Source: Desulfoscipio geothermicus (lineage in GTDB: Bacteria > Bacillota > Desulfotomaculia > Desulfotomaculales > Desulfallaceae). Taken from it: a stretch of DNA of 64,000 nucleotides. The position numbers and the translations under genes were made by a program. The notes under the pieces are model-generated. The model had not been told where the DNA came from, made no database searches, and saw only the letters and a program-made list of their open reading frames with translations. Each line of letters starts with the position of its first letter. The first letter of the stretch is position 1. Location: the NCBI GenBank assembly GCA_016841905.1, contig JAENYF010000003.1, positions 24,001-88,000 of the forward strand. Direction: 5' to 3'. Of the stretch, positions 3,267-31,172 are shown piece after piece.

Positions 3267-4418
3267 GTGAAAAAGTCTCTGAGTGGCAAAGAAGGACAAA
3301 CCTTAGTTTTGGTGATAATGATAACCACTGTCCTTTTTATATTATCCTCGGCTTTGGGAACTATGTCCATAGGGAGTTATACGAATGTTGTTAGGGAGGA
3401 AGAGTATGTTAAGGCACATTGCGCAGCCGATGCCGGTATTGAAAAAACCATCGCTGCTATTAAAGAGAACGTTGGTTGGTTGAATAACTTACCCGCAGCC
3501 GGTAATAATGATGTTTTTACTCAGGTTTTCCCGGAAACACCGGTTAGTGATTATGTTACATATTCAGTCGGGGCAATAAAACAAAGGCATTATATTGGCA
3601 ATTCTTTATTAATTAATTCCCTTGGACGGTGTGAAAACGATGCCGGTGAATTGCTGGCCAAAAAAACATTAAGGTGTATGGTTGCTGTGTATGGTGTGGA
3701 AGATTATTTAAAGGGGCTTGCTGTCCTATCCGCCCAACCGGCTTCTTTTGATATGTACAATAATATAACAGTGGATGGTAGTATAATTATAAATGGCAGT
3801 ATTAACATACCGGACAATATGCTGGTCAATGGTGATATTTATGCTAGCGGTAATGTCACGGGTGATTGTGCTGGTCAAATACATAGCAATTACGATTACA
3901 TACCATCTTTCCCGGAACTGGACGAGAATTATTACTTGCAGAAGGCAACGGAAGACGGTCATGTTTTTTATAACGATGTGGAATTTGGTTCCGGCGGGGT
4001 TATAACAGATTATAACGGTTTTTATTATGTGGATGGTAACGTCAATGTTTCCGGTGATTACCAGGGGGCGGCATTGATTTTTTCCACCGGCGATATTAAT
4101 GTGACGGGAAATATGGAAACCGGCGTTTCCGGGGGAGAAAATACCGGTATAGGTAATGGAAGTTTAACACTGGTTGCTCTTGGGGATGTAGATATCCATA
4201 ACTTTAATATACATGCCAATATTATAGCCGGTGGCTCTTTATATGCTCAAGACGGCGCATCGCTTCATGGTGCGGCTTGCATTGGTGACTTGATATATGA
4301 ACCTGTGGGAGCGGGGTTATTTGAAATATGCCATGTTCTCAGCCCTGAGCCGGTGGACGGTGCCTTAACGGTTAATATTGAAACAAAATTATGGGAGGAA
4401 TCACGTGCCGTATTTTAA
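3267..4418 (+). CDS. PilX-like pilus-associated protein with β-helix-like repeats
   Basis: 383 residues from GTG 3267, after an AGGTGAT site. The leader KKSLSGKEG is followed by QTLVLVIMITTVLFILSSAL, a PilX_N-type N-terminus without Glu-5. Residues about 165-345 carry short Gly/Asn/Val-rich repeats (VDGSIIINGSI, VNGDIYASGNV, VDGNVNVSGDY, STGDINVTGNM), suggesting a right-handed β-helix or bactofilin-like surface domain. It is the last gene of the pilin-like cluster. No assembly ATPase, PilC/GspF or secretin is in the window, so any such machinery must be elsewhere. Confidence 0.65.
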   Translation: MKKSLSGKEGQTLVLVIMITTVLFILSSALGTMSIGSYTNVVREEEYVKAHCAADAGIEKTIAAIKENVGWLNNLPAAGNNDVFTQVFPETPVSDYVTYSVGAIKQRHYIGNSLLINSLGRCENDAGELLAKKTLRCMVAVYGVEDYLKGLAVLSAQPASFDMYNNITVDGSIIINGSINIPDNMLVNGDIYASGNVTGDCAGQIHSNYDYIPSFPELDENYYLQKATEDGHVFYNDVEFGSGGVITDYNGFYYVDGNVNVSGDYQGAALIFSTGDINVTGNMETGVSGGENTGIGNGSLTLVALGDVDIHNFNIHANIIAGGSLYAQDGASLHGAACIGDLIYEPVGAGLFEICHVLSPEPVDGALTVNIETKLWEESRAVF

Positions 4419-26886: not shown

Positions 26887-27777
26887 ATGAGCTTTAAAGA
26901 GGAGCTGGCCAGGCTGGCAGGTATAGTAGATGAGGCACTTAATGAGTACCTGCCGCAAAGGGGCAATTACCCTGAAGTGATTCACGAAGCCATGCGTTAC
27001 AGTGTTTTCGCCGGCGGTAAACGCCTTAGACCTTCCCTGGTGCTGGCCTCTGCCCGGGCTGTTGGTGGAGATGAAACCACTGTGCTGCCCGCTGCCTGTG
27101 CTATTGAACTGCTGCACACTTACTCGCTGGTGCATGATGATTTACCTGCCATGGACAACGACGATTTACGCCGGGGCAGGCCGACCAATCACAAGGTGTA
27201 CGGAGAAGCCATAGCTGTACTGGTGGGTGATGCACTTTTAACTCTGGCCTTCAGGCTATTAGCCGGACTGTCCCAAAATAGGCCTGCGGGTGCGGGTAGG
27301 ATAGTACAGGTAATCGCTGAAGTGGCCCAGGCTGCCGGCACAGACGGATTAATTGGCGGCCAGGTAGTGGATATACTATCAGCCGGTAAGTTAATCGATA
27401 AACATACCCTTGAGTACATTCATACCCGTAAGACTGGTGCTTTGTACCGGGCATCGGTGCGGGCTGGAGCTATTTTATCCGGTGCAAACTTTGAACAGTT
27501 GAACAAGCTTACTATCTATGCCGAAAATCTGGGGTTGGCCTTTCAAATTGTAGATGATATATTGGATATTGAAGGTGACGAGCAAAAGTTAGGCAAGCCG
27601 GTGGGCAGTGACATAAACAATGACAAAGCTACTTATCCAGCGCTGTATGGTTTGGCTGCGGCCAAAGCAATGGCCCGACAGTCGGCTGAGCGAGCTACTA
27701 GTGCTCTGGACTTCTTTGGCGTTGAAGCTGATTTTTTGCGCGAGCTGATTTATTTTGTTCTGCATCGAGAGTATTAA
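26887..27777 (+). CDS. ispA: Geranyl/farnesyl diphosphate synthase
   Basis: 296 residues. The first Asp-rich motif DDLPAMDNDD (with the two-residue insertion typical of bacterial FPP synthases, near residue 84) and the second, IVDDILDIEGD (near 221), bind Mg-diphosphate; GGKRLRP (near 42) binds IPP. It makes the C15 precursor for undecaprenyl and quinone chains. xseB-ispA precede OLE RNA and dxs, matching the isoprenoid context reported for OLE loci. Confidence 0.96.
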   Translation: MSFKEELARLAGIVDEALNEYLPQRGNYPEVIHEAMRYSVFAGGKRLRPSLVLASARAVGGDETTVLPAACAIELLHTYSLVHDDLPAMDNDDLRRGRPTNHKVYGEAIAVLVGDALLTLAFRLLAGLSQNRPAGAGRIVQVIAEVAQAAGTDGLIGGQVVDILSAGKLIDKHTLEYIHTRKTGALYRASVRAGAILSGANFEQLNKLTIYAENLGLAFQIVDDILDIEGDEQKLGKPVGSDINNDKATYPALYGLAAAKAMARQSAERATSALDFFGVEADFLRELIYFVLHREY

Positions 27778-27913: not shown

Positions 27914-27943
27914 TTGCTGTTTTATGAATAATTATGTTATAAT
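27914..27943 (+). promoter_or_regulatory. Candidate promoter for OLE RNA
   Basis: TTGCTG, 18-nt spacer, perfect TATAAT; the expected start is near 27950, just ahead of the structured RNA. The 170-nt gap after ispA holds no ORF. If real, OLE can be made independently of the xseB-ispA transcript. Confidence 0.5.
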
Positions 27944-27949
27944 TATGCA

Positions 27950-28612
27950 GTTAAATTGATTTATAGTTTTCTACGAACAGGTGATGCAGTATCCTAGTCG
28001 GGAACCCTTTTTTGAAGACGGGCCTAAAAATCCGTTAAGGGCACATCGATGAAGTTCCTGGTGCTGGCTGCCGACGCCCAGTTGGGGGTTGGTACTGGGG
28101 GTTAAGGGGGCGGGGCGATCCGCAATGGCATGTGGGCGTTGACCCTGCCCTCGTGGAGACCCCAGTGCGTGGTAACTTGCTAGCGCAGTTGCTATGGCTG
28201 GGGGGTAAACCTGCATGTGGGGGAAGCTGCGTGCAGCGTAGCCTGCCTTGAGTGATGCCGGTGGAGGTCCTTTAACGGCATGTTACGTATGGGCCCATGC
28301 GTAATGTATCGTGGGTTTAAACCGTCATTGCAAAAGAGGCTAGGAAAAGGTACTCCCGTTGAGGAAAACTCCTAGGCTGTCCATGTACTGGGACGGTACG
28401 GGGATTACAGTGTGGACTAAGTGGTAATCTAGCCCCGGGAACTTATACTTTCCGGAATTTCGTTTAAAGGGAAACCGCCGGTATGGTGACAGCCGGTACG
28501 AAATTGGGAAAACCTGCTGGACCTAAGCCACAACATTTACCCGTATCGTTATCACTTGTTCTTCTACATATATATTGGCATCCCAGGTTTAATAAACCTG
28601 GCTTTGCCATAT
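27950..28612 (+). ncRNA. ole: OLE RNA (ornate, large, extremophilic)
   Basis: About 660 nt between ispA and a membrane protein gene, with higher G+C than other gaps and no plus-strand ORF. Seen directly: blocks GGGAACCC (28000), GGGCCTAAAAATCCG (28020) and CCTGCTGGACCTAAG (28513); stems TTACGTATGG/CCATGCGTAA (28283-28304) and AATTTCGT/ACGAAATT (28456-28505) enclosing a CCGG hairpin; and a strong terminal hairpin TGGCA..CCAGGTTT/AAACCTGG..TGCCA (28576-28609). From the literature, OLE RNAs are ~600 nt, occur in anaerobic and extremophilic Firmicutes between ispA and dxs, lie upstream of oapA, and form a membrane RNP linked to alcohol, cold and Mg2+ stress. Ends are approximate. Confidence 0.9.
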
Positions 28613-28642
28613 TATCTTCATGGTTTGTATGGAGTGAAATGG

Positions 28643-29209
28643 TTGAAAAATAATAAGTCTACGGTTTCCGGCAAGTTCGTTATATTTGTCGGTTTTCTTT
28701 CTTTTTTCTTTGCTGCGGTTTTCTTTTTATTATCCCAGTATTTAGCTGCAACCATCAATAGCCTGACCTTTTCGTTTTTGCTGCTGTTTTTTATTGTATT
28801 ATTTGGTATCATAGCAGATATCATTGGCACCTCTGTGGCCGCGGCGGATGAGGCGCCATTTCATGCCAAGGCAGCCAAAAAAGTAACCGGTGCCAAAGAA
28901 AGCGTATTATTAATTCGCAATGCCGATCGGGTAGCAAATATTACCAATGATGTGATTGGTGATATTGCCGGTACATTGAGTGGAGCGCTGGGTATTGCCC
29001 TTGGTTTGCAAATTATCAGCTTAACCAAGGATCTTAACCAGTTTTTTTTGAATATGCTAATTACGGCGCTGATTGCTGCATTAACAGTAGGGGGTAAGGC
29101 TTATGGTAAAAAAATTGCCCTCAGCAATGCTAATGGTGTGATTTTTATTGTAGGGAAAATAGTGGCAGCTTTCAGTAGTATAACGGGTAAAAATATCGTA
29201 AAAAAATAA
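28643..29209 (+). CDS. oapA: OLE-associated membrane protein OapA
   Basis: 188 residues from TTG 28643 (SD GGAG, 8-nt spacer). The in-frame extension to 28556 would overlap the OLE 3' hairpin. Lys/Asn-rich N-terminus, hydrophobic segments at about 11-37, 41-64, 107-127, 131-150 and 161-180, and the cytoplasmic loop DEAPFHAKAAKKVTGAK (69-85). DVIGD (103-107) fits the D-x3-D motif reported as important in OapA. It binds OLE RNA, holding it at the membrane. Followed at 43 bp by dxs. Confidence 0.9.
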   Translation: MKNNKSTVSGKFVIFVGFLSFFFAAVFFLLSQYLAATINSLTFSFLLLFFIVLFGIIADIIGTSVAAADEAPFHAKAAKKVTGAKESVLLIRNADRVANITNDVIGDIAGTLSGALGIALGLQIISLTKDLNQFFLNMLITALIAALTVGGKAYGKKIALSNANGVIFIVGKIVAAFSSITGKNIVKK

Positions 29210-29252: not shown

Positions 29253-31172
29253 TTGGGCAGGTATCTGGATCAAATCAATTCCCCCCGGGACGTTCGGGCA
29301 CTCACTCTTGCTCAGCTAGACCGGCTGGCCGGGGAAATCAGGGAAGAAATTATTGGCACTGTGGCTAAAAACGGCGGTCACCTAGCTTCTAATTTGGGAA
29401 TCGTAGAGTTGACCCTGGCGTTGCACTGCGTGTTTGATACACCTCAAGATAAAATTATTTGGGACGTGGGTCACCAGTGTTATGTACACAAATTAGTTAC
29501 CGGCAGGCGGGAGCAATTCAGTTCGTTGCGCTGTTACGGCGGGCTAAGTGGCTTTCCACGGCCAGATGAAAGCGAACACGATGCATTTGGTACCGGCCAC
29601 AGCAGTACCTCTATATCGGTAGCCCTGGGTATGGTGCTGGCCAGAGATTTCAGAGGCGACCGGCATAATGTGGTGGCAATGATTGGCGACGGTTCAATGA
29701 CCGGAGGTATGGCTTTTGAGGCCTTAAACCATGCCGGGCAATTGAAGAAGGATTTAATTGTTGTGCTAAACGACAATAAAATGAGTATATCAGCTAATGT
29801 AGGTGCCATGTCGGGCTATTTGAACCGCATCCGCACAGACCCCAAATACTCGAGGGGCAAGGATGAAATAGAGCATATATTACGCCGGATTCCAACTATC
29901 GGATCCACTGTGGCTAAAGTTGCGGAACGTATTAAGGATAGCTTTAAGTATTTGGTAGTTCCAGGCATGCTCTTTGAGGAGCTAGGTTTTACTTACTTGG
30001 GGCCTATTGACGGGCACAATATACCTTCTATGCTCGAAACCTTGGAGCAGGCCAAATCGTTGGGAGGCCCGGTACTGGTGCACGTGGTTACGGAAAAAGG
30101 GCGTGGGTACGCGCCGGCGGTGCAAAAAGCGGACAAATTCCATGGTATCGGGCCTTTTGACATCAGTTCCGGCAGCAGTCTTGAAAAAAACGAAATCAGC
30201 ACGTATACCGAGATTTTTGGGCGCACGCTGGTTAAGCTGGCTGAACAAGACTCTGCCATTGTCGCCATTACTGCTGCCATGTGCAGTGGTACTGGTCTTG
30301 GTGGGTTTGCCCAAAAATTCCCTGAGCGGTTTTTTGATGTGGGAATTGCCGAACAACATGCTGTAACCCTGGCGGCCGGGCTGGCCAGCGAGGGTTTTAA
30401 ACCTGTGGTAGCTATTTATTCTACGTTTTTACAGCGGGCTTATGACCAGATTATCCATGATGTGTGCTTGCCTAAATTGCCTGTGGTCTTTGCGGTAGAC
30501 CGCGCAGGTATTGTAGGTGATGACGGCCCAACTCACCATGGTTTATTCGATATATCTTATTTGCGCAGTGTTCCCAATATGTCGATTATGGCACCGGCGG
30601 ATGAAAACGAGCTTCAGCATATGTTGCATACTGCTTTGCAGCTAAATGGCCCGTGCGCACTGCGCTTTCCCAGGGGCACCGGCCTGGGTGTTGCTCTGGA
30701 CCGGCACAGCAGGGCGCTTTCAGTAGGCCAGGCAGAGGTGCTGATGGAAGGAAAAGATATCACTCTGCTAGCCGTAGGCAATACGGTATTGGCAGCTCGC
30801 CGTGCGGCGTCTGTTTTAAAGGAGCAAGGTGTGCTAGCTACTGTGATCAACGCTAGGTTTATAAAGCCTTTAGACGAGGAATGCATTACCCGGTGGGCTG
30901 GACGCACCGGCCGGTTAATCACAGTAGAAGAAAATATCGTAGCAGGAGGTTTTGGCGCATCAGTATTGGAGTTGCTTGCGGTTAAGGATATGACTGGAGT
31001 ACATGTTAAATGCCTGGGTATCAAGGATATCTTCCTGGAACATGGCAGCCAGTCGTTTTTACGTGACAAGTACGGGTTACAGTCGGAAAATATTGTAAAT
31101 TTGGCCATGCAAATGATTGATTCCGGTCGAACTAAAGGTACGAAAATTATTAGCCTGAGCGGAGGCGCGTAA
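29253..31172 (+). CDS. dxs: 1-deoxy-D-xylulose-5-phosphate synthase
   Basis: 639 residues from TTG 29253 (SD GAGGTGA). [13 protein letters not shown], the TPP motif [18 protein letters not shown]...[11 protein letters not shown] (near 150), catalytic Glu in [14 protein letters not shown] and the C-terminal domain are all present. First step of the MEP isoprenoid pathway, acting with IspA upstream. The stop lies 5 bp before tlyA. Confidence 0.97.

Follow-up and report, generated by a model that had tools for sequence, protein, structure and literature searches.

An OLE RNA locus in Desulfoscipio geothermicus and phage RNAs that resemble its domain 2 alone

The window, by which we mean the whole stretch of 64,000 nucleotides of Desulfoscipio geothermicus DNA analysed here, has the following gene order in its ORF list: presumably xseA, folD and an fchA-like gene, then xseB, ispA, the OLE RNA, oapA and dxs, followed by what we take to be tlyA, nadK, argR and recN. 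The names so qualified were given by eye to ORFs of the window, and family models confirm xseB, ispA and dxs only among the neighbours. The ispA gene for farnesyl diphosphate synthase lies at 26887..27777 (+) (PF00348, 1.6e-63; NF045485, 2.7e-113) and dxs at 29253..31172 (+) (TIGR00204, 852 bits), in keeping with the initial annotation, which had placed an OLE RNA between these two genes. The gap in plus-strand ORFs to which it had pointed is likewise present: beyond the end of ispA at 27777, the first plus-strand ORF of at least 60 aa starts at 28556. An antisense ORF at 27971-28216 is without a Pfam match and was rejected as a gene. Elsewhere in the window there is a lysine riboswitch (RF00168, 59468-59672 (+), 106.6 bits).

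A full-length OLE RNA occupies the gap at 27965..28571 (+). There cmscan against Rfam matches RF01071 with 527.6 bits (E 6.9e-152) over the complete model (positions 1-616), a score ten times the gathering score of 50 bits, and the identity proposed from the letters alone is thereby upheld. All three blocks that had looked conserved are present: GGGAACCC at 28000-28007, GGGCCTAAAAATCCG at 28020-28034 and CCTGCTGGACCTAAG at 28513-28527. The RNA had been given as about 660 nt long at 27950..28612 and as closing with a strong 3' hairpin. OLE does lie in this interval, and the hairpin sequence does exist at 28576-28609, but the 3' limit has to be drawn in to about 28560-28571, since P1 is closed by about 28558-28560 and the RF01071 match reaches no further than 28571; the hairpin falls beyond the family model. 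OLE is single-copy in the D. geothermicus genome, and the locus in the window is an ordinary, typical full-length member of the known family.

Of 299 genomes sampled across the phylum, 217 have OLE. We drew 166 loci from the better-scoring part of these 217; the alignment has the 150 that are full-length, 16 having been set aside because they were truncated, split or decayed or repeated a single contig. Several draft assemblies (L032, L033, L034, L035, L039, L041, L177, L179, L180) have contig ends with part of OLE; since assemblies break inside the RNA, its absence from a draft genome can be an artefact of assembly. In the alignment of the best 150 of 217 the median pairwise identity is 65%, and conservation reaches 97% or more in 178 of the 630 window columns. 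Among named organisms, Sporotomaculum syntrophicum is the nearest relative found, as befits the Desulfotomaculum group in which relatives were to be sought; its locus is 93.9% and its OapA 95% identical to those of the window.

Covariation was scored with a G-test and background correction against a null of 20 alignments simulated on the tree. At E<=0.05 it picks out 33 pairs in the best 150 of 217, and each of these is a Watson-Crick or GU pair in 80% or more of the sequences, so the stems pass the check on relatives by which the initial annotation was to be judged. The long-range stems that it had noted are among them, as pairs of P1, P2 and P3 covary in this same best 150 of 217. In P1 the two pairs tested (27978..27979 with 28557-28558) are significant and 82% and 94% paired. 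In P2 (5' strand CCUAG, 27993..27997, with 28372-28376) the pair 27993-28376 covaries and is 99% paired, the other pairs having been placed by eye; its CUAG palindrome is near one mapped OapA site (PMC12265935). In P3/P3.1 (28000..28012 with 28344-28357) six pairs covary, at 28001-28012 with 28344-28356 (best 150 of 217). These nine pairs, two in P1, one in P2 and six in P3, are all missing from the Rfam structure of RF01071, and since that structure is without three stems that covary strongly, the family model could be improved.

Upstream of OLE there is a candidate promoter at 27914..27943 (+), made up of a -35-like TTGCTG (27914-27919), an 18-nt spacer and an extended -10, TGTTATAAT, at 27935-27943. 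The consensus promoter scan of the window did not list it; the extended -10 is kept in 4/4 nearest relatives (L188-L191, from Sporotomaculum, Desulfoscipio and Desulfallas), and we consider it the probable promoter of OLE. Downstream, oapA occupies 28643..29209 (+), with a TTG start and the Shine-Dalgarno sequence GGAG at 28631-28634, and codes for a membrane protein of 188 aa. It is the multi-spanning membrane protein gene that had been noticed directly downstream: an OapA ORF lies 3' of OLE in all 150 full-length loci (the best 150 of 217), and that of the window has hydrophobic segments and a DxxxD at 103, with D103 and D107 invariant in 16/16 aligned proteins. No Pfam or NCBIfam model matched it. 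In the four nearest relatives the Shine-Dalgarno sequence and the TTG at 28643 are kept, as is the -10, while the spacer has diverged, and oapA therefore most likely begins at this TTG. A start at 28556 was rejected, because the relatives align from the NNKS block onward only and the Shine-Dalgarno sequence fits the TTG. As the called oapA start follows P1 at a median of 42.5 nt in relatives, co-transcription of OLE and oapA is probable. The locus is an ole-oapA unit in which OLE would be made from its own promoter.

The hairpin at 28576..28609 (+) thus lies in the spacer between OLE and oapA. Of the four nearest relatives, all but L191 keep hairpin-like sequence there as judged by eye, and among the best 150 of 217 the search for a hairpin succeeded in 40 of 146 OLE-oapA spacers (four of the 150 loci have no start call), a T-rich tail being present in 11 of the 40; with so few, we do not count it as part of OLE. 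The hairpin before the oapA start, with its terminator-like tail in 11/146 spacers (best 150 of 217), and the position of the whole region directly upstream of oapA are what one would expect if the region were no more than the long leader, or an attenuator, of the oapA-dxs mRNA, with stems that regulate in cis. To this reading we give hardly any credence: the region matches, over its full length, a family described in print as an RNP that acts in trans, no spacer hairpin was found in 106/146 loci (best 150 of 217), and 178 near-invariant columns across the entire RNA exceed the expected need of a leader. In Halalkalibacterium halodurans, the laboratory model for OLE, OLE provided in trans is reported to complement the chromosomal deletion.

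We prefer to see in OLE a trans-acting RNA that folds as two modules joined by P3. The first is domain 1 (P4-P9), at 28013..28343 (+) in the Rfam alignment. By homology, the domain 1 of the window would hold the dimer contacts and the OapC and bS21 sites (PMC12286853; PMC12265935). One such contact is a self-complementary kissing loop formed by the GGCC of P9.3 (PMC12286853). The window has GGGCCC in the apical loop of P9.3 (28291..28296 (+)), with the self-complementary GGCC at 28292-28295. Among the best 150 of 217 this loop has GGCC in 105, another 4-nt palindrome in 24 and none in 10, with 11 unscorable. As we estimate that a 4-nt palindrome would occur by chance in about a quarter of loops of eight, it is the GGCC count alone that is telling; as far as loop sequences can speak to it, the counts agree with a kissing-loop dimer.

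The second published proposal is that P3 spans the membrane (PMC12265935), with domain 2, in the published model, outside the membrane. P3 has 10-15 bp in 150/150 sequences, while the spans of P7, P8 and P9 vary widely (sd 8.0-9.8 nt), again in the best 150 of 217. In the same best 150 of 217, P1, P2, P4, P5 and one strand of P11 are as constant as P3; since other stems are equally constant, the length of P3 fits the membrane-span model and is rejected as proof of it. Domain 2 is the part left unresolved by cryo-EM (PMC12265935). Its core in the window lies at 28393..28551 (+), and in the loop of P13, GGUGAC at 28485..28490 (+), the GG and the AC both reach 97% conservation or more in the best 150 of 217. 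OapB binds P12.2/P13 (PMC12265935), and by homology the P13 loop of the window would be within the OapB-binding region. Taken together, domain 1 would be a dimerising scaffold that holds OapC and bS21, with OapA at the membrane, and domain 2 (P1, P2, P10-P15) would bind OapB. Published work describes OLE as an abundant, membrane-bound RNA, the knock-out of which gives stress phenotypes; in H. halodurans its particle adjusts how the cell responds to Mg2+, to cold, to alcohol and to carbon stress.

The partner proteins are encoded in the same D. geothermicus genome as OLE: OapB, of 98 aa, between map and infA (PDB 7k9b, E 2.9e-9); OapC/YbxF between rpoC and rpsL (YbxF chains, about 4e-15); and bS21 (4.4e-23). 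Across the sample, OapA matches occur in 222 of the 299 genomes, including all 217 with OLE; neither is found in 77/299, and OapA only in 5/299. In three of these five (G210, G236, G260) a contig edge cuts through OLE, of which a truncated end is left, in a fourth (G113) OapA itself is at a contig edge, and in the fifth (G262) there is a scrap of broken OapA only; we therefore reject OapA without OLE as a real state.

OapA is a distant relative of the CNNM (MpfA) proteins and, unlike them, is without CBS/CorC domains (PMC11332333). An anticorrelation of OLE and CNNM has been published there, and our counts agree: a strong CNNM (MpfA-type) protein is present in 79 of the 217 OLE genomes versus 65 of the 82 without OLE (Fisher p 2.8e-11, kinship ignored). 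The 144 genomes so counted were picked by eye from the table, the automatic tally of those over the cut-off being 154/299. D. geothermicus is itself an exception to the anticorrelation, with OLE and a 443-aa MpfA-type CNNM protein (G000:C36:30710-32041; L175:211-1542). In one genus the OLE-oapA pair seems to be dying in place (L038 of G014, L182 of G262, L187 of G238). In G238 OLE and oapA are both intact, with a weak PF01595 match (6.7e-6) at the oapA position. In G014, one of the 217 OLE genomes, OLE is degraded (169.9 bits, with an internal duplication) and oapA is broken, being interrupted by stops; in G262 the oapA scrap is the sole remnant. A strong CNNM (MpfA-type) protein is present in G014, G099 and G262; G238 (79% complete) and G163 (94% complete) gave none, and G163 gave no OLE either.

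Relatives of OLE also occur in viral contigs. A pattern drawn from OLE's most conserved stretch matched 20 of these, and on one (L223) positions 441-590 of RF01071 are recognised with 84.3 bits beside tRNA genes; the remaining 19/20 gave no OLE match by nhmmer or by R1, a covariance model made from phage RNAs alone. Two-block patterns added 10 contigs and then L238, for a total of 12 IMG/VR contigs with 10 distinct RNAs (at L223:1544-1764(+) and on L228-L238), and RF01071 scores above gathering on all twelve (78.7-124.2 bits). Eight further viral contigs that matched a looser pattern (L239-L246) have no R1 match and were rejected as members; two of them, L239 and L240, are also among the 21 controls used below. 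A domain 1 pattern that matches 102/150 bacterial OLE sequences hit no viral contig, and a domain 2 pattern that matches 54/150 hit 10 (both out of the best 150 of 217). By blastn, no copy of the phage RNA was found in 50,697 named phage records, and a blastn search with the domain 2 of the window gave no plasmid copies.

The phage RNA has about 225 nt and corresponds to P1, P2 and domain 2 of OLE. The ten distinct RNAs share one layout: P1 (AUGGC...GCCAU), P2 (UUCUAG...CUAGA, as in OLE), a short loop, and then domain 2. In 10/10 the short loop takes the place of P3-P9 (28000-28357 in the window). Two members have CCGG for the CUAG of P2 on both strands, and 2/10 have an altered P13 loop. Although domain 2 is present in both sequence and structure, domain 1 (P4-P9) and P3 are missing, and we accordingly file these RNAs as a domain-2-only relative and not as OLE.

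Their kinship to OLE can be read in both directions. R1, which the 12 phage contigs match by construction, finds domain 2 in all of 20 hand-picked bacterial OLE sources, including the window (28393-28551, 98.0 bits, E 4.9e-22), and in 0/21 control viral contigs chosen irrespective of tRNA arrays. Among the 10 sequences (the two phage RNAs identical to others were omitted from the alignments) RNAalifold gives 58 pairs, 31 with compensatory change. In that alignment 97.6% of cells are paired, a value that is favoured by the structure having been derived from the alignment on which it was scored; on four of five measures 0/500 shuffles are as high, and on the fifth, further pair types, 78/500 are, so that it does not stand above the shuffles. 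A joint phage and bacterial alignment has 95.0% of cells paired and two-sided change in 35/45 pairs, with the fit to the R1 structure again favouring the observed pairing. Of 48 near-invariant core columns of OLE domain 2, 33 are kept in at least 9/10 phage RNAs; the 15 not kept include 28470 and 28475, which vary together, a G turned to C at one and a C turned to G at its partner. A midpoint-rooted tree of domain 2 groups all ten phage RNAs in a single clade (support 1.0), and their mean identity is 71%.

The loss of domain 1 could suggest that the phage RNAs are functionless, decaying fragments of a captured bacterial OLE, and phage tRNA arrays do gather foreign RNA genes. Still, we place very little trust in this reading, as ten RNAs of one clade with 71% mean identity and 31 compensated pairs would not be expected of an unselected fragment, and as the truly decaying OLE of G014 differs, with its 169.9 bits, internal duplication and broken oapA. 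The retention of domain 2 in RNAs without domain 1 argues instead that domain 2 is separable and can be maintained by selection in the absence of domain 1. That the window carries OLE and that OLE includes a separable domain 2 module is a joint claim of which we are very nearly certain.

The phage contigs are 13-136 kb long and come from metagenomes. The stretches of them that were fetched (1.3-14.6 kb each) contain 4-25 tRNA genes, versus 0-2 in the 21 controls, and the nearest tRNA is at most 26 nt away in 11/12 loci (248 nt in L230). Rfam recognises a tmRNA on L230, L232, L233 and L236 (barely above the cut-off in L236), and ARAGORN one on L230 and L233 only; the L233 stretch that bears the OLE domain 2 RNA also has a ROOL RNA (3625-4261(-), 151.7 bits). 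Phage families, such as topoisomerase II, DNA ligase, HNH endonuclease and tRNA-His guanylyltransferase, are matched by 17/24 ORFs scanned. As capsid and terminase genes were not seen in the fetched stretches, the viral assignment rests on IMG/VR and on these matched families. The 12 stretches, which are parts of the contigs, have no OapA-, OapB- or OapC-like ORF, and a scan of viral contigs with an OapA pattern gave no relative.

This setting would suit an RNA recruited to the tRNA array to serve its structure or its processing, perhaps by stabilising it or as the partner of a Ro-like protein, and not as a mimic of OLE: a tRNA lies within 26 nt in 11/12 loci, tmRNA and ROOL genes are nearby, and a Ro-like RNA-binding protein ORF is present in 4/12 fetched stretches, the unequal lengths of which leave room for it elsewhere. 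Against this, 33/48 core columns of OLE are kept, which points to OLE's own ligand; and Ro-like proteins occur in 675 of 50,697 phage records, so that their presence is unspecific, and a Ro-like protein as the specific partner of the phage RNA was rejected as too widespread in phages. Such a role in the array is possible, though we would stop short of calling it probable, and the phage RNA could indeed have been put to a use unrelated to OLE.

The reading that we prefer, with a weight equal to that of the array role and held just as tentatively, is that of an autonomous domain 2 RNA: large phages may express domain 2 alone from their tRNA arrays, and in the cytoplasm it would imitate the OLE particle of the host or serve as its decoy. 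We infer that the RNA would most likely be excised from a tRNA transcript and would likeliest act in the cytoplasm on a host factor shared with OLE domain 2. The location follows from the composition of the RNA: P3 is missing and no OapA was found nearby, which leaves the RNA without an evident route across the membrane, and if its ligand is the same as that of OLE domain 2, that ligand should be cytoplasmic. If so, a cytosolic ligand of domain 2 would argue against the published model in which domain 2 is outside the membrane, and a phage RNA without P3 or a nearby OapA makes that transmembrane model testable. To our knowledge, of the structured RNAs for which no biochemical function is known, OLE ranks with the largest. 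The copy in the window is by itself one more ordinary OLE; the stand-alone phage domain 2 matters more, and a natural RNA of about 225 nt without domain 1 is far easier material for structure, probing and binding work.

OLE is thus already known, and the new part is the stand-alone phage domain 2 RNA, in so far as our literature search, in which subscription papers were covered sparsely and bioRxiv preprints hardly or not at all, found no report of a phage OLE. In the available part of the literature on ROOL, GOLLD and OLE, OLE is not tied to phages, and named phage genomes were searched with an OLE profile with no mention, in that part, of phage OLE (PMC12286853); phage lncRNAs are only likened to OLE in another study (PMC9241854). 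Compared with RF01071 as reviewed in PMC12265935, the OLE of the window has the same length, blocks, stems, ispA/oapA/dxs setting and partner genes, with no notable difference; the phage RNAs differ from RF01071 OLE in that P3-P9 are missing and OapA was not detected alongside. They resemble ROOL and GOLLD, which are likewise large ornate phage RNAs near tRNA islands; these, however, are separate Rfam families and are described as distinct from OLE (PMC12286853). The other shortened forms of OLE are variants 1 and 2, of the TANB77 and RF39 clades: variant 1 has short P7-P9 and often no P13 tip, and variant 2 is without P7 and P8 (PMC11332333). The phage RNA is shortened as they are but goes further, all of domain 1, P4, P5 and P6 included, being missing together with P3, and it keeps P13.
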